Of a stretch of 64,000 bases of DNA, positions 13,557 through 25,302 are shown in pieces. The position numbers and the translations under genes are program-made. The number at the start of each line of letters is the position of its first letter. Position 1 is the stretch's first letter. Source of the stretch: Maribacter sp. ACAM166 (lineage in GTDB: Bacteria > Bacteroidota > Bacteroidia > Flavobacteriales > Flavobacteriaceae); the NCBI RefSeq assembly GCF_005771495.1, contig NZ_VAUW01000016.1, forward strand, positions 1-64,000, given 5' to 3'. The notes under the pieces are model-generated. The model made no database searches. It saw nothing but the letters and a program-made list of their open reading frames with translations, and had not been told where the DNA came from.

Positions 13557-16085
13557 ATGAAATTATATTCCTTCAAAGCAGCGCTAATTTCCATCGTATT
13601 TATTTCTTTTTTAGCGTTCAATCTTCCCGAACAGAGCAACAGGTTATTAAAAAAAATAACCGACAGTTTAGAAAAGTATTACGATATGGATGGTCCGGAA
13701 AAAGCCTTCTTGGAGACCGACAAGGATATGTATGTTCTTGGGGACACTATTTGGTTCAAGACCTATGTCGTGGATGGTATTACCCATCAAGCAAGCAAAA
13801 AGAGTAAGGTGGCCTATGTGGAGATGTTGAACGATAATGACAGTATCGTCGAAAAACGGAGACTTTTTGTAGAAGGCACTAGTGGTTTTGGTGATATTTT
13901 ACTCTCTAAGATGTTAAACACGGGAGCTTATAGATTGCGTACATACACCAACTATATGTTGAATGACGAGTATGTTTCCTATTTTGAGAAATCGATATCC
14001 ATTGCTACAAAGAGTTCATCAATGGTACAAGTTTCTTCAGAATCAGTTGAAATTGGCAATGAATCAAAGTTAGAGGAGGTTGATGCTATAGAAGTAGACC
14101 TAATGTTTTTTCCAGAAGGAGGTGATTTAGTAACAGGGGTTTCTGGGGTTTTGGGTATTAAGGCGCTTGACTCTAGAGGTGTAGGTCAAGCTTTGAAAGG
14201 AAGTATCCACTCAACTAATGGTGATTTGGTTGCCGAATTCGAGACCGCTGAATTTGGTTTGGGCAAGGTGAACATCATCCCAAAGAAAAATACGGACTAT
14301 TATGCCCGTATCAATAAGGGCAATGAAGACAGGCGGTTCAACCTTCCCGTTGCGAAGGCAGCGGGGTATTCGTTGAACATTAAAAATTGGAAAGACAATC
14401 TATTACTACAGGTAACCACTACGAAAGGTAATTCGTTGGAAGGTACTCTTCTAATAGGTCATTTAAGGGGTGAGCTGATTTTTAAGAAATTGGGAACGGG
14501 CGTGGACAAAGATTCCTATGCCGTTCGTTTATTAACTGAGGAACTTCAGGAAGGAATAGCACAGTTCACACTTTTTTCATCAGATGGGAATCCTATTTGT
14601 GAACGTTTGGTATTCGTGGACCATCCGGGCATTCATGCCGAGGTGATTATCAAGACTAACAAGGATAACTTTGTAACCAAAGAGAAAGTGAATCTTGATA
14701 TTTCAGTATTGAACAAGAAAGGTAATCCGTTACAAGGTGATTTTTTAACAAGTGTCATTCCTGCAACACATCAGTTAAAACAGGGTAATATGGGTCTCAA
14801 GGGTTGGCTATTGTTGAATTCCGATCTTGGGGGTACGGTCGTTGATCCTGATTTTTTCTTCAGTGAGGATACGAAGCAGAAACGTTTTCTTTTGGATGCC
14901 TTATTGCTAACTCATGGTTGGCGTAGGTTCGTGTGGAAAGAAATGTTGGGAGATGAAATTCAAAAAGATGTCGCTTATGTTCCAGAGAAGGGTATCATGA
15001 TTAAAGGTACTATGGTCGATTATTATCATCCGTCCATGGCTAAGTCAGTAATAGCCAAGTTCAATGTACTAGAAGAAGCTTTATACGATGAGCAAGTGGC
15101 CGATGAAAAAGGGCAATTCAGTTTTGGGCCTTACTATTTCAACGATAGTATTACGGCCATCATTCAAGCTGTAGATACTACGATACGTGCAAAAAGCGCA
15201 CAAAAAAATATTGCAATAATAGTTGAGGAATGGCCCGATATTCCGAAAACCGCCATATCGAAGGACAGTGTTGTAAGAGATTCCAAGATATTCAAAATAG
15301 AAGAATTCTATTCTCAAACGGAATACCCATCATCATATTTTCTAGATGAACAGGATTTGATTAAACTTAATCCTGTATCTATAAAGGCCAAAAAAATAAG
15401 TAGAGCCCGCTTTGTAGAAGAAGAATTAAATAAGACTACACCTTATGGAAGGCCAGATATTCGAGTATTCAGGGATTCGGTTTCAGGATGGCAGACTATG
15501 AGTGTATTGGGCCTTTTGCAGAGAAGAGGGGCTGTAACACGTGCTGGAACATCGATGATGACTAGTACTACATCTAATAGTATTTCAGCTGTGGGTCCAT
15601 TGGTGTTGTTTAACGGAACTAGTACTAGTATTACTTTGGCCGAATTAAATATTATGAGAGCCAATGAGGTGGTTTACGTTGATATTATAAGAGGATATAA
15701 CTCAGGCGCTTCAATGTATGGTGCTAGAGGTATGTTTGGTGTAATTGCAATTTATACGAATCCACCATCCATTGAGGGATTAGAAAAGTATAATAATCCT
15801 ATTGATATTCCGGGTATAAAAACGGCAAGAATAACCGGGTTTTATAAGGCGTGCGAATTCTATTCGCCCAATTATTCAGAAGCCAGTACGTCAAAAACTG
15901 AGTTAGATTACCGAACTACACTTTTTTGGGATCCAAAGGTGAATTTGAGTAAAGATGGTAAGACACAAATACAATTTTATACAGGCGATGTAACCGGTGA
16001 TTTTATGGTAAAATTTCAAGGTATTTCTGATACTGGCAAACTAGTGACCGGTAGTCATTACTTTACGGTAGATAATAGTTTGTAG
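13557..16085 (+). CDS. Macroglobulin-like protein with a C-terminal TonB-receptor plug domain
   Basis: This exported protein of 842 residues has an N-terminal hydrophobic signal near residues 5-22. Residues about 45-150 (FLETDKDMYVLGDTIWFKTYV, then GTSGFGDILL) resemble the MG2 domain of alpha-2-macroglobulins. The middle region looks beta-rich. Residues near 640-740 resemble a TonB-dependent receptor plug (VLFNGTSTSITLAELN; VDIIRGYNSGASMYGARG). The end (FYTGDVTGDFMVKFQGIS) again resembles macroglobulin-type beta domains. No outer-membrane barrel follows the plug. Such proteins occur in Bacteroidota with unknown role. It stands alone between the tRNAs and murF. Confidence 0.75.
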   Translation: MKLYSFKAALISIVFISFLAFNLPEQSNRLLKKITDSLEKYYDMDGPEKAFLETDKDMYVLGDTIWFKTYVVDGITHQASKKSKVAYVEMLNDNDSIVEKRRLFVEGTSGFGDILLSKMLNTGAYRLRTYTNYMLNDEYVSYFEKSISIATKSSSMVQVSSESVEIGNESKLEEVDAIEVDLMFFPEGGDLVTGVSGVLGIKALDSRGVGQALKGSIHSTNGDLVAEFETAEFGLGKVNIIPKKNTDYYARINKGNEDRRFNLPVAKAAGYSLNIKNWKDNLLLQVTTTKGNSLEGTLLIGHLRGELIFKKLGTGVDKDSYAVRLLTEELQEGIAQFTLFSSDGNPICERLVFVDHPGIHAEVIIKTNKDNFVTKEKVNLDISVLNKKGNPLQGDFLTSVIPATHQLKQGNMGLKGWLLLNSDLGGTVVDPDFFFSEDTKQKRFLLDALLLTHGWRRFVWKEMLGDEIQKDVAYVPEKGIMIKGTMVDYYHPSMAKSVIAKFNVLEEALYDEQVADEKGQFSFGPYYFNDSITAIIQAVDTTIRAKSAQKNIAIIVEEWPDIPKTAISKDSVVRDSKIFKIEEFYSQTEYPSSYFLDEQDLIKLNPVSIKAKKISRARFVEEELNKTTPYGRPDIRVFRDSVSGWQTMSVLGLLQRRGAVTRAGTSMMTSTTSNSISAVGPLVLFNGTSTSITLAELNIMRANEVVYVDIIRGYNSGASMYGARGMFGVIAIYTNPPSIEGLEKYNNPIDIPGIKTARITGFYKACEFYSPNYSEASTSKTELDYRTTLFWDPKVNLSKDGKTQIQFYTGDVTGDFMVKFQGISDTGKLVTGSHYFTVDNSL

Positions 16086-16130: not shown

Positions 16131-17408
16131 TTATAAATAATCCAAAACTCTTTCGAGCGCCATACCTCTTGAGCCTTTAATAAGTATCGATGAATTGGCC
16201 TGTAATTTGTTTTCAGTTAAATAATCTTTTAGCGCTTCAAAGTTTTTAAGCTTGATAGAATTCGTTTGTGTGCGGCAAAAATTTTCACCTACTAACAGCA
16301 CTTTGTTAAAGTGTAATGTTTTTGTTAATTCAGCAATAGATTGATGCTCCTCATTGGCTGAATTACCCAATTCGAACATATCCCCTAGAATTAAAACCTT
16401 ATCGGTCTTCGCTAACGCATTAAAATTTTCTAAGGCGACTTTCATGCTTGATGGATTGGCATTGTATGCGTCTAGAATAATATAATAGTCTTTTTTAGTT
16501 ACTATTTGAGACCTGTTGTTGTCAGGAGTAAATTTTTCAATTGCACGTTTTATGTCATTCGTTGCCACATTAAAAAACATACCAATAATCACTGCAGCAC
16601 AGCAATTATGAAAGTTATAGGCTCCAATAAGTTTTGATGCTATTTCTACATTTTCAAATTTTAGGCTTACAAATGGTTGTGCTCCTAAAAAATCGATTTT
16701 ATAAAATTTTGAATTCCTTGCACTAAAGCCAAATTTTCTGGCGTATAAGCTTAACTTCTCTAATTGTATAGGGTCGTCTGCATTTAAGAAAATAGATTTA
16801 TTATTTTTAATAAGATAATCGTATAATTCACTTTTACCTTTGATGACACCTTCAACGCCGCCAAAACCTTCTAGATGGGCTTTTCCGAAATTAGTGATAT
16901 AACCAAAATCAGGCTCTGCAATTTCGCATAAAAACTGTATCTCATGTACATGGTTGGCGCCCATTTCTACAATTGCGATTTCGGTATCGAGTTCTATGGA
17001 TAGTAGGGTTAAAGGAACCCCAATATGGTTATTTAAATTGCCTTTTGTGGCAATAGTATTGTAAGTGCTTGCTAGTACAGAATGAATCAACTCCTTAGTT
17101 GTGGTTTTTCCATTGCTTCCGGTAAGACTTACTATTTTAGCCTTGCAAAAATTTCTATGATAATTACCTAATTTTTGCAGCATTGCTAACGAATCATCAA
17201 CAAGAATAGTTTTGTCATTGATATAGTATTCTTCTTGGTCAATGATTACATGGCTAGCCCCATATTTTAAAGCTTGTTTTGCATAGGTGTTACCATTAAA
17301 ATTTTCACCTTTTAGGGCGAAGAAGATATCATTTTCTACTATTTTCCTGGTGTCGGTACTAACCGATGGGAACTTTAAAAAAATTGAATGTAAGTCTTGA
17401 ACGTTCAT
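16131..17408 (-). CDS. murF: UDP-N-acetylmuramoyl-tripeptide--D-alanyl-D-alanine ligase
   Basis: This cytoplasmic enzyme adds D-Ala-D-Ala to the UDP-MurNAc-tripeptide in peptidoglycan synthesis. The 425 residues show STDTRK near the N-terminus, the ATP loop GSNGKTTTKEL, NLNNHIGVPLTLL, EMGANHVHEI, ADDP, and DAYNANPSSM, all diagnostic for MurF. It lies downstream of gldJ on the same strand, but a terminator separates the two, so its promoter must lie in the short gap between them. Confidence 0.96.
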   Translation of the reverse strand: MNVQDLHSIFLKFPSVSTDTRKIVENDIFFALKGENFNGNTYAKQALKYGASHVIIDQEEYYINDKTILVDDSLAMLQKLGNYHRNFCKAKIVSLTGSNGKTTTKELIHSVLASTYNTIATKGNLNNHIGVPLTLLSIELDTEIAIVEMGANHVHEIQFLCEIAEPDFGYITNFGKAHLEGFGGVEGVIKGKSELYDYLIKNNKSIFLNADDPIQLEKLSLYARKFGFSARNSKFYKIDFLGAQPFVSLKFENVEIASKLIGAYNFHNCCAAVIIGMFFNVATNDIKRAIEKFTPDNNRSQIVTKKDYYIILDAYNANPSSMKVALENFNALAKTDKVLILGDMFELGNSANEEHQSIAELTKTLHFNKVLLVGENFCRTQTNSIKLKNFEALKDYLTENKLQANSSILIKGSRGMALERVLDYL

Positions 17409-17471: not shown

Positions 17472-19139
17472 TTATTTAGCTTTTTTCCCTCTAACAGTTT
17501 TGTTCTTGTTTTTTGATTTTGAACCGACTCTAGACATTGCACATCTAAATCCGATATTATCCGTAGCCATATACTGAGGCAGATATCTTCTCTGTGCTGG
17601 ATCTAACCAATACGCTCTATCTCTCCATGAACCACCTTTATAAACTCTTACTTCATCATTGATAAGTGTTGTTCTGTTATTTGATTCATCATAGCCTTTG
17701 ATAAGATTTCCAACAGAATCCCTTTCGACCGAATGTTTTGGGGAGTTGTACATTTTTTTGTTCTGACCCGGCTCTTCTTCATCGCTAAACCTGTCGTAAA
17801 ATCTTGAAGAACCAGCATCTCCATCTCTATAACCTCTATTGTCACTAGAGGAAAAGTTGGTTCTTAAATACGTTTCTTCTTCATCAACAGGTACCATTTT
17901 AATTTCTCCTGGCAGATTCATTGCAACTACTTTTCCATTAGGTAAAGTGTCATAAATTATAGAGTCCCTTAAAATTTTAACCTTTCCATCTTCGCCGATA
18001 GCGCTTTTCATATAAATATTCCCTCTGTAGTAGTTGAAATCACTTACTTCATCATCAACAATTGGGCGGTATACATCGGCTACCCATTCAGCAACATTAC
18101 CAGCCATATCGTAAAGACCTAAATCATTCGGTTTGTATGACATTACTTCAGCAGTAATATCGGCACCATCATCTGACCATCCGGCAATTCCGCCGTAATC
18201 ACCTTTGCCTTGTTTAAAGTTTGCTAATTGATCTCCTCTACCCACTCGCTGTCCGCTTCGTGTGTAATCTCCTTCCCAAGGATATTTTTTTCTTCCACGG
18301 TAGTTGTTGTATTCTCTTTGACCAACTTGTGCCTGTGCGGCATATTCCCATTCTGTTTCAGTAGGAAGTCTATATTCTGGCATGATGATTCCGCTACTTC
18401 GTTTAGCAAAAACAGATACACTATCCTTTTTCATATCACCCTGTAAAGAATCTATTTGGCCACTATATACCGATTCAGGTCTTTTTAAATAAGCTTCCGT
18501 ACTAAAAGTTCCTTGCACCTCTCCGGTTGAAGCTTGATACTTAGCGTCTTCAGATAAATACCCTTCGCGCTCCAACATCACTTCATTGACACGGTCAGTT
18601 CTCCATTCAGCAAATTGAGTTGCCTGTATCCAGTTAACACCTACAACCGGATACTCAGCATATGCCGGATGTCTTAGGTAGTTATTTGTCATTGTCTCAT
18701 TGAAACCTAGTCTATTTCTCCAAACCAAAGTATCAGGTAGTGCACCAACATAGATGTTGGTGTATTTAGGATTTTCTGGTGGATATACACTTTTAAGGTA
18801 ATCTAGATATTCTAGATACATTACGTTGGTAACCTCAGTCTCATCCATGTAAAATGATTGAACATGTTGTGACGTAGCAGTATTATTCCAATCATGCATC
18901 ACATCGTCTTGAACTTTTCCTTTGGTAAATGTACCTCCTTCAACAAACACCAATCCAGGAGCTGTTTCTTGCTCTTTAAAATCAGTATTGTATTGAAAAC
19001 CGCCTTCCTTGGCATTTATTTTCCAACCTGTAGCTCTAGACGTGTTTTTTGACGATGAAGATTTAGAACAGCTATTTACCGCTAAACCTCCTACTATAAC
19101 CGTGCATGAGAGTACAACTTTTATTAAATGTTTTTTCAT
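17472..19139 (-). CDS. gldJ: Gliding motility lipoprotein GldJ
   Basis: GldJ is an outer-membrane-associated lipoprotein needed for gliding and type IX secretion in Bacteroidota. The 555-residue protein carries a lipoprotein signal ending at Cys24 (AVNSC). Most of the rest is a formylglycine-generating-enzyme/SUMF1-like fold: APGLVFVEGGTFTKG, FYMDETEVTNVMYLEYLDYL, YRLPTETEWEYAAQAQ, YDMAGNVAEWVADVY, and a closing GSWRDRAYWLDPAQRRYL and IGFRCAMS. Its length and N-terminus match GldJ closely. It is divergent from porV, the usual neighbourhood for this gene. The SUMF1-like fold here is structural and does not show that it matures sulfatases. Confidence 0.93.
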   Translation of the reverse strand: MKKHLIKVVLSCTVIVGGLAVNSCSKSSSSKNTSRATGWKINAKEGGFQYNTDFKEQETAPGLVFVEGGTFTKGKVQDDVMHDWNNTATSQHVQSFYMDETEVTNVMYLEYLDYLKSVYPPENPKYTNIYVGALPDTLVWRNRLGFNETMTNNYLRHPAYAEYPVVGVNWIQATQFAEWRTDRVNEVMLEREGYLSEDAKYQASTGEVQGTFSTEAYLKRPESVYSGQIDSLQGDMKKDSVSVFAKRSSGIIMPEYRLPTETEWEYAAQAQVGQREYNNYRGRKKYPWEGDYTRSGQRVGRGDQLANFKQGKGDYGGIAGWSDDGADITAEVMSYKPNDLGLYDMAGNVAEWVADVYRPIVDDEVSDFNYYRGNIYMKSAIGEDGKVKILRDSIIYDTLPNGKVVAMNLPGEIKMVPVDEEETYLRTNFSSSDNRGYRDGDAGSSRFYDRFSDEEEPGQNKKMYNSPKHSVERDSVGNLIKGYDESNNRTTLINDEVRVYKGGSWRDRAYWLDPAQRRYLPQYMATDNIGFRCAMSRVGSKSKNKNKTVRGKKAK

Positions 19140-19572
19140 AATTAGGACTTGAGTTCAATTTGCATAAACTATAGTTGTTTCGCTTCTATAGCTTATAGTA
19201 CTAGGTTTTATTTTAATTTGTTTGTCACTTTCGCTCAATAGAACGGTGTTTTTGTGAGATTATTTTATAATTGAAAATAATTTTAAGCTTCTTGATTCAA
19301 ACTGATAATTAAAATTAGGTTCGCTTAAAGAGGTAAACGGCTAAATACGTTAAATAGTATGGTTTTTAATATTTCTTTTCAAGGCAATACAGTGTAATTA
19401 AATTGAAATGTCAATTGTTTTATGATTTCTGTATTTGAGTAAGATTGATTTTTTTTATAAAAATCTTAATATTCGTGCAAGATAACGGGAAAAAGTCCGT
19501 TTTCATGTAAAATATAAGAGCTGAAACATTGGAAACACTATATTTCGCCTTTTAAAATTAAGAACTATTCTA
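19140..19572. other. gldJ-porV divergent intergenic region; porU not present
   Basis: The 433 bases between the divergent gldJ and porV starts are AT-rich and contain no open frame of note. In other flavobacteria the T9SS sortase gene porU sits next to porV here, and neither an intact copy nor a recognisable remnant is seen. TATATTTC near 19538 is one base off the promoter motif. Confidence 0.6.
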
Positions 19573-20721
19573 ATGAGAAAAATATCAATAATTTTCTTTG
19601 TACTCGTAATCGGAAAAATATCTGCTCAAAACGATCAAAGAGTTATTACTACTGCCGTGCCATTCCTTACAATTGCAGCCGATGCTAGATCGGCAGGGAT
19701 GGGAGATATGGGAGTTGCAACTTCCGCCGATGCCTTTTCCCAGCAATGGAATCCTGCAAAATTTGCATTTGCCGACCGAAAAATGGGTATTGGTATTAGT
19801 TATACTCCTTATTTGGAAAGTATTATTACCGACATATCATTGTTGAATGCGAGTTACTATAATAAATTAGACGAGCAGAGTGCATTTGCTGTGAGTTTGC
19901 GTTATTTCACTTTGGGTGAAATAGAATTACGACAATTCGCAAATGATCCAGGAACAATAGCAAAGCCAAATGAATTGGCTCTTGATGGTTCGTATTCGTT
20001 AAAATTAAGTCCGACATTTTCTATGGCGGTGGCGGGTAGATATATTAGGTCAAATTTAAAATTACCTCAAAATGGTTCTGAAGATTCGAAAGCTGCAGGG
20101 TCTTTTGCTGTTGATGTTGCAGGTTTTTACAGGTCTAGGGAGATAGCATACAATAATTTTGATGGTCGCTGGAGGGGAGGTTTTAATTTTTCTAACATTG
20201 GAGGGAAAATTCAATACGATGCAGGCGGACAGGAAAACTTTTTACCTAGTAACTTGAGGTTTGGTGGTGGTTTTGATTTTATTATGGATCAAGATAATGT
20301 GATAGGTATAACGACTGAATTCAGTAAACTCCTAGTTCCAACACCTCAAGATTTTGATAACGATGGTGATGTTGATGCACAGGATAATGATATTTATCAA
20401 AATGAAAGCGGATTCAGTGGTATTTTTAATTCTTTTTCTGATGCTCCAGATGGTTTCAGCGAAGAATTAAATGAGTTTACTTGGTCTTTAGGAGCAGAGT
20501 ATACGTATCAAAATTCTTTTATGTTCAGAACTGGATATTTTAATGAGAGTGAGGAAAAAGGATCTAGAAAGTTCTTTACCTTAGGTGCAGGATTCAAGTT
20601 TAATTCCGCCCAAATTGATTTATCTTATTTGTTCTCAACATCACAAGTTAGAAATCCATTGGAGAATACCTTACGGTTTTCCCTTACTTTTAATTTAGGT
20701 GAAGAATATTACAATGACTAA
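19573..20721 (+). CDS. porV: Type IX secretion system outer-membrane protein PorV
   Basis: PorV (LptO/PG27 family) is an outer-membrane barrel that takes T9SS cargo from the translocon SprA to the attachment machinery. The 382-residue protein has a signal peptide ending near SAQN. The diagnostic N-terminal part follows: VPFLTIAADARSAGMGDMGVATSADAFSQQWNPAKFAF. The C-terminal strands (FFTLGAGFKFNSAQIDLSYLF; LRFSLTFNLGEEY) are typical of FadL/PorV-type barrels. It is followed by a terminator and cdd. The expected partner porU is absent upstream. Confidence 0.93.
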   Translation: MRKISIIFFVLVIGKISAQNDQRVITTAVPFLTIAADARSAGMGDMGVATSADAFSQQWNPAKFAFADRKMGIGISYTPYLESIITDISLLNASYYNKLDEQSAFAVSLRYFTLGEIELRQFANDPGTIAKPNELALDGSYSLKLSPTFSMAVAGRYIRSNLKLPQNGSEDSKAAGSFAVDVAGFYRSREIAYNNFDGRWRGGFNFSNIGGKIQYDAGGQENFLPSNLRFGGGFDFIMDQDNVIGITTEFSKLLVPTPQDFDNDGDVDAQDNDIYQNESGFSGIFNSFSDAPDGFSEELNEFTWSLGAEYTYQNSFMFRTGYFNESEEKGSRKFFTLGAGFKFNSAQIDLSYLFSTSQVRNPLENTLRFSLTFNLGEEYYND

Positions 20722-20769: not shown

Positions 20770-20829
20770 GTGTTTAAACATTTCGGAATCAAATTAATTA
20801 ATTTGTAGATTGACATTTAAATTGTGGAT

Positions 20830-21318
20830 ATGGCTTTTCAAAAGAAAATAAGTTTTGATGTGACAATATATGACTCGTTCGATGAATTGAGCGAAGGTGA
20901 TAAATTGCTGATGTCTGCAGCGGTTAGTGCTAGAAAAAGGGCCTATGCACCTTATTCTAATTTTTTTGTTGGAGCTTCTATCTTATTGGAGAATGATGAA
21001 ATCATAGAGGGAAATAACCAAGAGAATGCATCTTACCCCTCTGGTTTGTGTGCAGAACGGGTTGCTGTTTTTTATGCTGGAGCTAATTTTCCAGGTGTTC
21101 AAATAAAAACAATTGCTATTTCCGCTGCTGCCTTAAATCATGAAGTAAGTGAACCGGCAGCGCCCTGTGGTAATTGTAGGCAAGCAATTTCAGAGTATGA
21201 ATTTAAACAGGCCAAACCGATTAAAATTCTATTAATGGGTGAAACTGGTGGAGTAATTGAATGTGATTCTGTGGCAGATTTACTTCCATTGGGGTTTAAT
21301 AGTAGTTACTTGGAATAA
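20830..21318 (+). CDS. cdd: Cytidine deaminase
   Basis: This cytoplasmic zinc enzyme deaminates cytidine and deoxycytidine to the uridine forms for pyrimidine salvage. From the ATG chosen here it has 162 residues. The zinc site is clear: Cys74-Ala-Glu76 in SGLCAERVAV, and Cys113 and Cys116 in APCGNCRQAI. YAPYSNFFVGASILLENDEII is the usual substrate-binding segment. A GTG two codons upstream is an alternative start; the ATG is preferred because GTG starts are uncommon. A short inverted repeat (AACCCTTT/AAAGGGTT, 21318-21338) overlaps the stop and may act as a weak terminator. Confidence 0.95.
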   Translation: MAFQKKISFDVTIYDSFDELSEGDKLLMSAAVSARKRAYAPYSNFFVGASILLENDEIIEGNNQENASYPSGLCAERVAVFYAGANFPGVQIKTIAISAAALNHEVSEPAAPCGNCRQAISEYEFKQAKPIKILLMGETGGVIECDSVADLLPLGFNSSYLE

Positions 21319-21436: not shown

Positions 21437-21507
21437 TCCTTCTGCGATACCTAGGTCAATCGAACCTCTGGAATCTTTAGAGAATTTAAAACCTTTAGTT
21501 AAAATTG

Positions 21508-22506
21508 ATGAAAAAAATCACCAAAGAAACGTATTTAAAATGGTATGAAGACATGCTGTTTTGGAGGAAATTTGAGGATAAATTAGCCGCTGTTTATATT
21601 CAGCAGAAGGTACGAGGATTTCTTCATTTGTATAATGGGCAAGAAGCCGTTTTGGCAGGTGCCCTTCATGCTATGGATCTTTCCAAAGACCGTATGATTA
21701 CGGCGTATAGAAATCATGTGCAGCCCATTGGTATGGGAGTTGACCCTAAACGAGTAATGGCCGAACTTTTCGGGAAAGTAACGGGAACATCAAAAGGAAT
21801 GGGTGGTTCTATGCATATTTTTTCTAAAGAACACCGTTTTCATGGAGGTCATGGTATTGTAGGTGGTCAAATACCTTTAGGTGCAGGAATGGCCTTTGGT
21901 GACAAATACCATGGAAGAGAAGCTGTTACTTTGTGTTATATGGGTGATGGAGCGGTAAGACAGGGTTCCCTTCATGAAACATTTAATTTAGCTATGTTAT
22001 GGCAATTGCCTGTAGTTTTTGTTTGTGAAAATAATGGATACGCTATGGGAACTTCTGTTGCAAGAACTTCTTTTTCTACTGAAATTTGGAAACTTGGTTT
22101 AGGTTATGAAATGCCATGTGGTCCCGTTGATGGAATGAACCCAATGACCGTAGCTCAAGAAATGAGTAAGGCAATTGAAAGAGCTAGAAGTGGAGGAGGG
22201 CCAACGTTTTTAGAAATGAAGACCTATAGATATAGAGGTCATTCAATGTCAGATGCGCAGTATTATAGAACGAAAGATGAGGTTCTGGAGTACAAGAAGA
22301 TAGATCCAATAACTCAGGTTTTGGATATTATAAAAGAAAACAAATACGCAACCGATACCGAAATCAAGGAAATTGATAAAAAGATCAAAGAAATGGTCAA
22401 GGAGTGTGAAAAGTTTGCAGAAGAATCAGATTATCCACCAGTAAACCAATTATATGATATGGTTTACGAGCAAGAGGATTTTCCATTTGTTCAACATAAA
22501 TTGTAA
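21508..22506 (+). CDS. pdhA: Pyruvate dehydrogenase E1 component, alpha subunit
   Basis: E1 alpha binds thiamine diphosphate and, with E1 beta, decarboxylates pyruvate and acetylates the lipoyl group of E2. The 332 residues show FLHLYNGQEAVLAG, YRNHVQPIGMG, GKGMGGSMHIF-type (here SKGMGGSMHIF), and the ThDP motif GDGAVRQGSLHETFNLA...ENN. The phosphorylation-loop-like YRYRGHSMSDAQYYR is conserved. The ATG at 21508 is preferred to a TTG one codon upstream. pdhC follows after four bases, but the E1 beta gene is about 18.5 kb away. Confidence 0.96.
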   Translation: MKKITKETYLKWYEDMLFWRKFEDKLAAVYIQQKVRGFLHLYNGQEAVLAGALHAMDLSKDRMITAYRNHVQPIGMGVDPKRVMAELFGKVTGTSKGMGGSMHIFSKEHRFHGGHGIVGGQIPLGAGMAFGDKYHGREAVTLCYMGDGAVRQGSLHETFNLAMLWQLPVVFVCENNGYAMGTSVARTSFSTEIWKLGLGYEMPCGPVDGMNPMTVAQEMSKAIERARSGGGPTFLEMKTYRYRGHSMSDAQYYRTKDEVLEYKKIDPITQVLDIIKENKYATDTEIKEIDKKIKEMVKECEKFAEESDYPPVNQLYDMVYEQEDFPFVQHKL

Positions 22507-22510
22507 GTAG

Positions 22511-24163
22511 ATGGCTATAGTGATAAATATGCCCCGTTTAAGCGATACCATGGAAGAGGGTACCGTAGCTAAATGGTTGAAAAGTGTAGGTGATAAAATT
22601 GAAGAAGGCGATATATTGGCTGAAATCGAGACTGATAAGGCAACTATGGAGTTTGAGTCTTTTGATGAGGGTACTTTATTATATATTGGAATAAAAGAAG
22701 GAGAAGGTGCTCCTGTTGATACGCTATTGGCTATTATTGGCGAAGAAGGAGAGGATATTTCTTCATTGATTAATGGCGGTACCGAATCTAGTTCGGATGA
22801 AAAGTCTTCTAAAGAAAAGGTCGATACTGAGGTTAAATCTGAAGACGCTGATTCTGATGAAGCTGAAACTGGTTATTCAATTCCTGAGGGAGTTGAAGTA
22901 ATTAATATGCCTCGATTGAGCGATACCATGGAAGAGGGTACAGTGGCAAGTTGGTTAAAGAGTGTAGGTGATGATGTTGAGGAAGGTGATATTTTGGCTG
23001 AAATCGAAACAGACAAAGCTACTATGGAATTTGAATCATTTTATTCCGGTAAATTATTACATATCGGTATTCAAGAAGGTGAGTCTGCTCTTGTAGATAC
23101 TGTTTTAGCTGTTATTGGCCCAGAGGGAACGGATGTCGATGCTGTTTTAAATAATAAGTCTGGGGGAAGTAACAAGAAATCAAGTTCCGAAGCCAAAAAG
23201 GAAGAAAAGAAAGTAGAGGTTACATCTGAAATCAAAGAAGTGTCGAAATCAGTAACTGATGGTGATAGAATTTTTGTATCACCTTTGGCTAAAAAGATAG
23301 CTGCGGATAAAGGTATAGATTTGGCAAATGTTTCTGGTTCTGGAGATAATGGTAGAATTATTAAAAAGGATATAGAGAATTATAAGCCTTCTTCAGATTC
23401 TAAACCAACAAGTTCAAGTATTAAGACTGAGACTTCTTCTTCAAAAGTTCAACCTGTATCTACGGCTTTGCCATCTGGTGAAGAGGGTACTGAAGAGGTC
23501 AAGAATTCTAATATGCGTAAGGCAATCGCTAAGGCTCTTGGAAATTCTAAATTTAACGCTCCACATTTTTACCTTACCATCGAGGTAGATATGGATAATG
23601 CTAAGCAATCTCGTGTTCAAATAAATAGTCTGCCAGATACTAAGGTGTCTTTTAATGATATGGTATTGAAAGCATGTGCAATGGCGCTTAGAAAACACCC
23701 ACAGGTGAATACATCTTGGAATGGGGATACAACGAAGTATAATAAGCACATTCATATGGGTGTTGCAGTTGCTGTTGATGAAGGTTTGGTAGTGCCAGTC
23801 GTGAAGCACTGTGATTTGTTGGGCTTAACTGAAATTGGAAGTGCAGTAAAAGATTTGGCAGGAAAGGCACGTAACAAGAAAATCTCTCCAGCAGAAATGG
23901 AGGGTAGTACGTTTACGGTTTCAAATTTAGGAATGTTCGGAATTCTTGAATTTACAAGTATTATAAATCAGCCAAATTCAGCTATACTATCTGTAGGTGC
24001 AATAGTCGAAAAGCCTGTAGTGAAAAACGGTGAGATTGTAGTTGGTAGTACTATGAAGTTAACTTTAGCTTGCGATCATAGAACAGTAGATGGCGCAGTT
24101 GGAGCTCAATTTCTTCAAACATTACGTTATTTTGTGGAAAATCCAGTAACAATGTTAGCATAG
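22511..24163 (+). CDS. pdhC: Pyruvate dehydrogenase E2, dihydrolipoamide acetyltransferase
   Basis: E2 forms the core of the pyruvate dehydrogenase complex and transfers acetyl groups to CoA. The 550-residue protein has two lipoyl domains, with lipoyl lysines at Lys43 and Lys169, both in the context ETDKATMEFES. Acidic and Ser/Lys-rich linkers follow. The peripheral E3/E1-binding domain is at about 255-291 (VSPLAKKIAADKGIDL...GRIIKKDI). The acyltransferase domain ends with the catalytic DHRTVDG at 522-528. It is cotranscribed with pdhA and ends at a strong terminator. Confidence 0.97.
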   Translation: MAIVINMPRLSDTMEEGTVAKWLKSVGDKIEEGDILAEIETDKATMEFESFDEGTLLYIGIKEGEGAPVDTLLAIIGEEGEDISSLINGGTESSSDEKSSKEKVDTEVKSEDADSDEAETGYSIPEGVEVINMPRLSDTMEEGTVASWLKSVGDDVEEGDILAEIETDKATMEFESFYSGKLLHIGIQEGESALVDTVLAVIGPEGTDVDAVLNNKSGGSNKKSSSEAKKEEKKVEVTSEIKEVSKSVTDGDRIFVSPLAKKIAADKGIDLANVSGSGDNGRIIKKDIENYKPSSDSKPTSSSIKTETSSSKVQPVSTALPSGEEGTEEVKNSNMRKAIAKALGNSKFNAPHFYLTIEVDMDNAKQSRVQINSLPDTKVSFNDMVLKACAMALRKHPQVNTSWNGDTTKYNKHIHMGVAVAVDEGLVVPVVKHCDLLGLTEIGSAVKDLAGKARNKKISPAEMEGSTFTVSNLGMFGILEFTSIINQPNSAILSVGAIVEKPVVKNGEIVVGSTMKLTLACDHRTVDGAVGAQFLQTLRYFVENPVTMLA

Positions 24164-24221: not shown

Positions 24222-24249
24222 ATCTTTAAATTCTAAATTGATTTTGTTT

Positions 24250-25302
24250 ATGAAACATTTAAGTATAGTCCTTTTTAGTTTTTTGGTACTAGGTTGTGGT
24301 GCAGCAAAAATTGAACAGACGACCGTATTAAATCCAACAAATAATCTTAAAGAAGTTCGTGGCGAAGTTGTGCCAAACCCAACTGAATCTAAGGATAATA
24401 GTGAGACTAACGCTTTGAAATCAACGTTAGAAGCGTTCAGTACGCCAGAGGATATTGAAAAGATTATGGTGTATCTAACTTCTAATGAATTACAGGGTAG
24501 GGATACCGGTAGCGAAGGTATTTCTAAGGCAGCAGATTTTATACAAAATGTATTTGAGGAGCATAACATTAAACCTTATTTTTCTTCATATCGAGATAGC
24601 TTGGTAAACTATGATAACGGAACGGCGTATAATGTAGTTGGATATTTACCAGGAACAGATTCAAAACTTAAAGATGAAGTTATTATCATAGGAGCTCATT
24701 ATGATCATATTGGTTTATTAAGCGGTCAAATAGGAGATAGTATTGCAAATGGAGCGAATGATAATGCGTCGGGTACAACAACAGTTTTAGAGTTTGCCAA
24801 GTACTTTGGTAAAGTAAAGAGAAATAAACGGAGTATCATTTTTGCTATGTTTTCTGCTGAAGAAAAAGGCCTTTTGGGCTCCAAGCACTTAGCTAATAAA
24901 TTGAAAGAGGAGAATATCAATCTGTATGCCATGCTAAATTTTGAAATGGTTGGGGTTCCAATGGTCGATAAAGATCATAGTCTTTATTTAACAGGCTATG
25001 AATTATCAAATTTGGCAGAAGTCAGTAATGCATACGCAAATAAAAAACTCGTAGGCTTTCTTCCTAAAGCAAAAGAGTTCAATCTTTTTAGACGGTCAGA
25101 CAATGCTCCTTTTCATGATGTGTTTAATGTTCCTTCCCAGACTTATAGTTCATTCGATTTCACCAATTTCGGGGAGTATCATAAGGTAGGGGACGAAGCC
25201 TCTAAAATGGATTTTATTTATATGGCAACGATAGTCAACGAGGTTATTCCTGTATTAACGGGTATTGTGAATTCACCAATAAAGGAGATAAAATATAATT
25301 AA
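24250..25302 (+). CDS. M28 family zinc aminopeptidase, lipoprotein
   Basis: This is an exported metallopeptidase that probably trims peptides at the cell surface or in the periplasm. From the ATG at 24250 it has 350 residues; a TTG four codons upstream is less likely. The start MKHLSIVLFSFLVLGC is a lipoprotein signal with Cys16. The M28 zinc ligands are visible in IIGAHYDHIG, NGANDNASGTT and SAEEKGLLGS, and a later HDVFNVPSQTYSSFDFTNFGEYHK region supplies the final ligand. Its stop overlaps the start of the SDR gene (TAATG), so both are cotranscribed. Confidence 0.92.
   Translation: MKHLSIVLFSFLVLGCGAAKIEQTTVLNPTNNLKEVRGEVVPNPTESKDNSETNALKSTLEAFSTPEDIEKIMVYLTSNELQGRDTGSEGISKAADFIQNVFEEHNIKPYFSSYRDSLVNYDNGTAYNVVGYLPGTDSKLKDEVIIIGAHYDHIGLLSGQIGDSIANGANDNASGTTTVLEFAKYFGKVKRNKRSIIFAMFSAEEKGLLGSKHLANKLKEENINLYAMLNFEMVGVPMVDKDHSLYLTGYELSNLAEVSNAYANKKLVGFLPKAKEFNLFRRSDNAPFHDVFNVPSQTYSSFDFTNFGEYHKVGDEASKMDFIYMATIVNEVIPVLTGIVNSPIKEIKYN

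Follow-up and report, generated by a model that had tools for sequence, protein, structure and literature searches.

Our analysis indicates that the attachment module of the T9SS has probably been lost as a block, repeatedly, within the Flavobacteriaceae, with the PorV shuttle kept; the fate of the cargo in the genomes concerned we infer. The basis for this is undetected PorU, PorQ and PorZ, a near all-or-none distribution of the three, conserved synteny, repeated loss on a tree, fossils in lineages elsewhere in the family, and fewer type A cargo signals.

The window (the whole 64,000-nucleotide stretch of Maribacter DNA that was analysed) belongs to an 84094-bp contig of a 4.92 Mb assembly (G000) with 114 contigs and 4.58% contamination. 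Open reading frames, together with profile matches for GldJ, PorV and cdd, bear out a first-pass annotation in which gldJ, porV, cdd, pdhA and pdhC follow one another in that order:

16131..17408, minus strand: murF, a conserved neighbour of gldJ (TIGR01143, 372 bits against a cut-off of 289)
17472..19139, minus strand: gldJ, gliding lipoprotein, divergent from porV (TIGR03524, 904 bits against a cut-off of 458)
19140..19572, no strand: non-coding gap of 433 bp, the ancestral place of porU
19573..20721, plus strand: porV, T9SS outer-membrane shuttle, kept (NF033710, 541 bits against a cut-off of 250)
20824..21318, plus strand: cdd, cytidine deaminase, downstream synteny marker (TIGR01354, 115.9 bits against a cut-off of 113.65)
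21505..22506, plus strand: pdhA, downstream synteny marker, listed with a TTG start and in identical order in relatives; named from the first-pass annotation and the sequence rather than a profile scan
22511..24163, plus strand: pdhC, downstream synteny marker with a relative in 65 of 65 long named loci; named in the same way as pdhA
24238..25302, plus strand: M28 family peptidase adjoining pdhC, the fourth gene after porV (PF04389, 119 bits)

The gap between the divergent gldJ and porV genes is indeed without coding sequence, as had been noted, since a scan of both strands found no ORF of at least 60 aa. Searched with 51 PorU proteins (tblastn) it gave no match (best E 0.12), and no remnant of the porU 3' end was found in it (354 of 1000 shuffles scored equally); the absence of a trace here is as expected of an older loss. 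Within the genus the gldJ-proximal part is the best-conserved portion of the gap, with 90 of 453 aligned columns invariant across 14 gaps, two of which (L015, L187) come from one contig. A Bacteroidetes-type promoter motif (TA..TTTG) was not found in the gap. On the other side of gldJ, beside murF, positions 13557-16085 encode an 842-aa putative exported protein for which no Pfam or NCBIfam match was found. A relative of this protein is present in five of 55 PorU-less long named loci and in none of 10 PorU-bearing ones, the latter count carrying little weight as the DNA fetched there stops close to the place or short of it.

In PorU-bearing relatives porU lies between gldJ and porV, on the porV strand. 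The order gldJ-porU-porV-cdd-pdhA given by the first-pass annotation is right for these relatives in most fetched loci, and gldJ, porU, porV is the order stated for F. johnsoniae in PMC7440613. gldJ and porV are divergent in all 216 loci where both genes are readable. The interval between them measures 3686-4328 bp with porU (64 loci) versus 171-1003 bp without it (median 430; 152 loci representing 130 distinct gap sequences, some genomes having been fetched twice), and no locus is intermediate. PorU is mostly about 1290 aa long (range 892-1353, 64 loci), and different insertion places for porU were not seen among the 64 loci holding both flanking genes. The order-level outgroups G037 and G040 carry porU at the same syntenic place. 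No gene-sized ORF replaces porU in the PorU-less loci read; inside their gaps, ORFs of at least 100 aa are confined to two genomes (175 aa, the largest, in G186, and 110 aa in L198).

Among the 80 named loci, which are the best 80 of 580 and hence weighted to near kin, 63 lack porU, 12 carry it, and five end before gldJ yet show PorU. The five best are Maribacter with PorV identities of 90-92%. Comparison of the gene order across relatives, as the first-pass annotation had advised, shows porU missing at all 57 of the nearest named loci (L184-L240), which include Maribacter, Zobellia, Arenibacter, Zeaxanthinibacter, Eudoraea, Cellulophaga, Muricauda/Flagellimonas/Allomuricauda, Robiginitalea, Croceivirga and Pricia. 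Further PorU-less named loci are three from Galbibacter, Salinimicrobium, L251 and Aquimarina aquimarini. Algae-associated genera, e.g. Zobellia and Maribacter, are represented among the PorU-less named loci. Absence at the 57 nearest loci indicates that the loss is old and shared across the clade, and not peculiar to this genome. The first-pass annotation had named the lack of porU at this place in close relatives as something that would refute it; such a lack holds for these 57 loci, while the gap that it described is real, and its interpretation overall is partly supported.

A genome-wide Pfam profile search for Peptidase_C25, another check proposed by the annotation, returned zero matches in G000; the named control genomes were also matchless in that search, and the genus and family searches served as its working control. 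Within the genus (Maribacter by name) none of 36 genomes has a match, six of them being less than 90% complete, and the matchless genomes include one-contig assemblies (e.g. G001, G007, G032, G033). The same model matched 17 of 60 genomes in the genus and outgroup search, none of the 17 being a family member. Within the family it matched 255 of 397 genomes (159 of 237 genera). We counted 252 genomes as PorU-bearing, after dropping three weak C25 matches (G186, G246 and G452; 1e-4 to 3e-12, above the Pfam cut-off) from genomes whose gldJ-porV gap is without porU despite the match. PorU is well conserved where present, with C25 E-values mostly from 1e-90 to 1e-116. A profile built from the 51 PorU proteins matched 64 of 64 PorU-bearing loci and, of 152 PorU-less loci, only L116, where the match is weak (17 bits, E 4e-4) and does not lie in the gap.

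The two other components of the attachment complex are likewise undetected in G000, where the sole match to the PorQ model NF033711 is PorV itself (58.8 bits against a cut-off of 220) and PorZ (PF21544) has zero matches. With PorV present and PorU, PorQ and PorZ all absent, this genome resembles the Sphingobacteriia-like T9SS that is without the attachment module. We chose 25 PorU-bearing and 25 PorU-less genomes by completeness and spread (47 genera) rather than at random; all 25 of the former have PorQ (above cut-off) and PorZ, and none of the latter has either. Counting strong matches in the 330 of 397 family genomes of high quality (completeness of at least 90%, contamination of at most 5%), 208 have all three components, 118 have none and four are missing PorQ alone; none has PorQ or PorZ without PorU, PorU alone, or PorU and PorQ without PorZ. 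Across all 397 genomes, strong matches give all three in 238, none in 140, PorU and PorZ without PorQ in 10, PorQ and PorZ without PorU in four, PorU and PorQ without PorZ in three, and PorQ alone and PorU alone in one each. PorV was found in 389 of the 397 genomes and in 326 of the 330.

Raw tallies over the 397 genomes are 255 for C25, 259 for PorZ and 245 for PorQ above cut-off (246 at the strong-match threshold, E below 1e-40). The cleanness of the table rests on dropping weak matches, namely the three to C25 and seven to the PorZ model in PorU-less genomes (G017, G105, G115, G159, G221, G295 and G436; E 9.6e-6 to 8.4e-4). Only three of the 259 PorZ matches fall below the Pfam cut-off (256 are above it), so four of the seven dropped ones must pass it. 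The remaining PorZ matches have E-values of 6.9e-12 or better, and comparable weak extra matches occur beside a true PorZ in some PorU-bearing genomes (G119, G131, G094), which suggests that the weak ones are other propeller proteins. Four high-quality genomes (G188, G203, G261, G291) have PorU and PorZ with no strong PorQ match; the best in G188 reaches 6.7e-36 and may be a diverged PorQ.

A fourth component, PorV2, appears to follow the same pattern, its presence being read from matches to the PorQ model rather than to its own. All 25 chosen PorU-bearing genomes have a third PorQ-model match of the PorV2 kind (75-104 bits), and the two that we scanned are PorV2 (NCBIfam NF052325, 430 bits each). 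The 25 PorU-less genomes yielded only four second PorQ-model matches near PorV2 size (66-86 bits). We rejected these as PorV2, those of G089, G323 and G365 being PorV paralogues by NCBIfam scan and that of G168 being 74% identical to the G365 paralogue. The PorV-like protein PorV2 was probably lost along with PorU, PorQ and PorZ. Their near all-or-none distribution provides genetic evidence for PorU, PorQ and PorZ, perhaps with PorV2, acting as one module. PorU is often regarded as a standard T9SS part, yet no PorU, PorQ or PorZ is seen in 118 of 330 high-quality Flavobacteriaceae.

A tree built from MurF, GldJ, PorV and PdhA (quick search, LG+G4, no bootstrap) comprised 139 rows, 77 of them PorU-less; these are part of the PorU-less genomes, some entered twice, with G105 and most small PorU-less genomes outside the tree. 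Parsimony gives six changes of PorU state on this tree, five of which are forced by well-supported branches (four and two, respectively, on a first tree of 61 rows). Because porU occupies the same place in the outgroups G037 and G040, we read these changes as losses. PorU is missing from a large clade spanning Maribacter to Galbibacter, from the Salinimicrobium group, from Aquimarina aquimarini together with L251, and from G407, G275 and G199. Both states occur among high-quality genomes within genus g67 (G105 without, G326 with) and genus g196 (G407 without, G234 with), as well as among named Aquimarina genomes, and such same-genus pairs make the fate of type A cargo directly testable.

Some of the PorU-less lineages outside the Maribacter clade retain fossils of the module. 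The gap of Aquimarina aquimarini (L263) begins with the gldJ-porU spacer (83% identity over 182 bp to L246), and in both L263 and its sister L251 the gap ends in a decayed porU 3' end (0 of 1000 shuffles each). In G199 the lon-cmk interval, where PorU-bearing G201 has porQ, contains the last 46 residues of PorQ (63% identity to PorQ of G409, E 8e-14; 33% to that of G201, E 5e-6). As read from these sequences, the fossils indicate real deletion in other lineages. A weak 3' similarity in L107 (G407; 20 of 1000 shuffles) was not counted as a porU fossil, and the conserved stretch could alternatively be a porV promoter formerly inside the porU end.

These observations bear on three other accounts of the missing gene. 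A gap or collapse in the G000 assembly, raised in the first-pass annotation, draws on its 114 contigs and 4.58% contamination, but the gap is mid-contig, 152 loci share its structure and one-contig genomes of the genus are also without C25; an artefact is very unlikely, with a probability close to nil. PorU might instead be present but diverged past recognition, or have moved elsewhere as that annotation suggested. Three first-look C25 candidates in G000 failed when scored, and the G000 search alone is no proof of absence. Set against this are the zero C25 matches in G000, the strong conservation of PorU where it occurs, the fossils, and PorQ and PorZ, which are separate genes at other loci and are missing from the same high-quality genomes; relocation is unsupported, and the account is largely refuted and very improbable. 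Finally, the Maribacter lineage may never have had PorU, others having gained it, as presence and absence alone give no direction. The outgroup synteny and the fossils in PorU-less genomes of other lineages make this extremely improbable.

Cargo signals persist in the absence of the module, with 14 type A (TIGR04183) and 18 type B (TIGR04131) matches in G000. Type A signals number 5-33 (median 13) in the 25 PorU-less genomes versus 10 to at least 92 (median 65) in the 25 PorU-bearing ones, a difference whose p-value of 7.5e-8 overstates the case as the genomes are related. Type B signals are alike (median 13 versus 10, p 0.65), as is genome size (median 4.0 versus 3.8 Mb). TIGR04183 may miss diverged signals in PorU-less genomes; loose first-look candidates differ in the same direction (median 35 versus 88). 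Contrasts between lineages, with comparators taken from the tree neighbourhood except G326 (same genus code as G105), give 17 in G407 versus 139 in G234; 59 in PorU-less Aquimarina aquimarini versus 93 in a PorU-bearing Aquimarina; nine in G105 versus 20 in G326; seven in G199 versus 43 in G174 and 84 in G409; 16 in G275 versus 38 in G292 and 75 in G153; and 10-15 in nine genomes of the Salinimicrobium group versus 25 in G405. Two Aquimarina-group pairs are mutually non-independent, hence five contrasts, all with fewer type A signals in the PorU-less member (sign test 0.06). The 59 signals that PorU-less Aquimarina aquimarini retains weigh against the contrast. PorU-bearing Leeuwenhoekiella also have few type A signals (10 in G201, seven in G385), and so contraction of the type A repertoire may precede as well as follow loss of the module.

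In P. gingivalis, from which most of the relevant work comes, cargo leaving the translocon is brought by PorV to PorU-PorQ-PorZ, which is the site of CTD cleavage and of joining to A-LPS (PMC10202324, PMC5445135, PMC7468200). Type B substrates leave on other, anchoring carriers (PMC10994853, PMC9143113). The T9SS of P. gingivalis shares PorV and both type A and type B signals with that of G000 and differs in having the PorV-PorU-PorQ-PorZ attachment complex (PMC10202324), of which the sortase, PorQ and PorZ are undetected in G000. We propose that the gap in the window is the scar of an old deletion, and that the PorU sortase and its partners PorQ, PorZ and probably PorV2 would have disappeared together, as one functional unit, from the ancestor of a large clade including Maribacter, Zobellia, Arenibacter, Cellulophaga, Muricauda/Flagellimonas, Robiginitalea and Galbibacter. 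At least four further lineages would also have lost the module, with PorV retained as the shuttle. The core export machine would work without it. Kharade and McBride (2015) reportedly found F. johnsoniae PorU dispensable for secretion of ChiA, RemA and SprB. On F. johnsoniae PorU, PMC7440613 states only that gliding is unaffected. Type A cargo would then leave SprA on PorV with its CTD retained, to be displayed non-covalently on PorV-type carriers or released by unspecific proteases. PorV would be consumed rather than recycled, each cargo tying up one PorV, and selection would shrink the type A repertoire while leaving type B, on other carriers, untouched. Such tying up of PorV would fit type A counts that are reduced and type B counts that are not.

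Alternatively, the PorU-less clade may now rely on a non-homologous peptidase or sortase to remove the CTD. PorU-less genomes retain 5-33 type A signals (25 genomes) that something must handle, and an M28 peptidase gene is found at the locus in 54 of 55 PorU-less versus three of 10 PorU-bearing long named loci. The M28 gene is not favoured as a sortase substitute, its association being with the locus only, and it stands at the same place in PorU-bearing Aquimarina, Flavobacterium and Leeuwenhoekiella. PorQ and PorZ, used by the known type of sortase pathway, disappear with PorU, and type A signals are fewer in PorU-less genomes. The suggestion in the first-pass annotation that porU had been replaced likewise finds no evidence, with PorQ and PorZ also not found and no gene-sized ORF at the place in the PorU-less loci read; a substitute is unlikely.

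Under block loss of the module with PorV kept, PorV could tentatively be regarded as the final anchor in sortase-less flavobacteria, type A cargo being displayed there, or on PorV paralogues dedicated to it, without being cut. If so, this would be a third surface display route beside covalent anchoring by PorU and type B carrier anchoring. A lead for the PorV-as-anchor reading is a second PorV paralogue in PorU-less G365 (L265:3555-4724, minus strand), G168 (L266:3584-4762, minus strand) and G089 (L267:3227-4411, plus strand). Against the PorV model it scores 359 bits in G365 and 344 bits in G089, and in the three genomes it shares 36-42% identity with the respective main PorV. Directly beside it is a gene whose repeat-rich product measures at least 1030 aa (the ORFs lie near the ends of the fetched pieces), a pairing that we take to be reminiscent of SprB/SprF. 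The tail of the neighbour looks CTD-like by eye, with no match to the type A model and 17 bits to the type C model in G168 only.

T9SSs without the three parts are already in print for Sphingobacteriia (PMC7323717), as are two flavobacteria without PorU and PorQ (PMC7440613). In Sphingobacteriia the same three 'modification' components, PorQ, PorU and PorZ, are absent with the rest reported, and the authors propose that cargo is left bound to PorV or that substitutes are yet to be recognised; the absence is stated class-wide there, whereas here we find repeated loss inside one family, fossils, and fewer type A signals. The same article lists Flavobacteriia as having all 20 components (PMC7323717). 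The sponge isolates Aa_F7 and DN50 belong to the family studied here and similarly have a gldJ locus without porU, with PorU and PorQ absent (PMC7440613). The nearest BLASTN match of Aa_F7 is Flagellimonas, and for both isolates the other T9SS and gliding genes, including SprA and GldKLMN, are reported present and colonies spread on agar (PMC7440613). That report differs from ours in covering two strains and in reporting hypothetical genes adjoining gldJ (PMC7440613). In the open-access literature searched we came across no account of the family-wide, nearly all-or-none distribution, of how many losses took place, of the fossils, of the co-loss of PorV2 or of the cargo contrast.

Among the type A signals of the PorU-less genomes is a secreted protein of about 110 aa that has little to it besides its signal peptide and type A CTD (L276:3263-3583, minus strand; G000:C39; L277-L286). 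It adjoins a LuxE-like gene in 11 of 11 PorU-less genomes from three loss lineages, a count biased by these genomes having been fetched for showing such a short match. A neighbour of about 740 aa is common to 10 of the 11, and as a guess the short protein might be a PorA-like signalling ligand.
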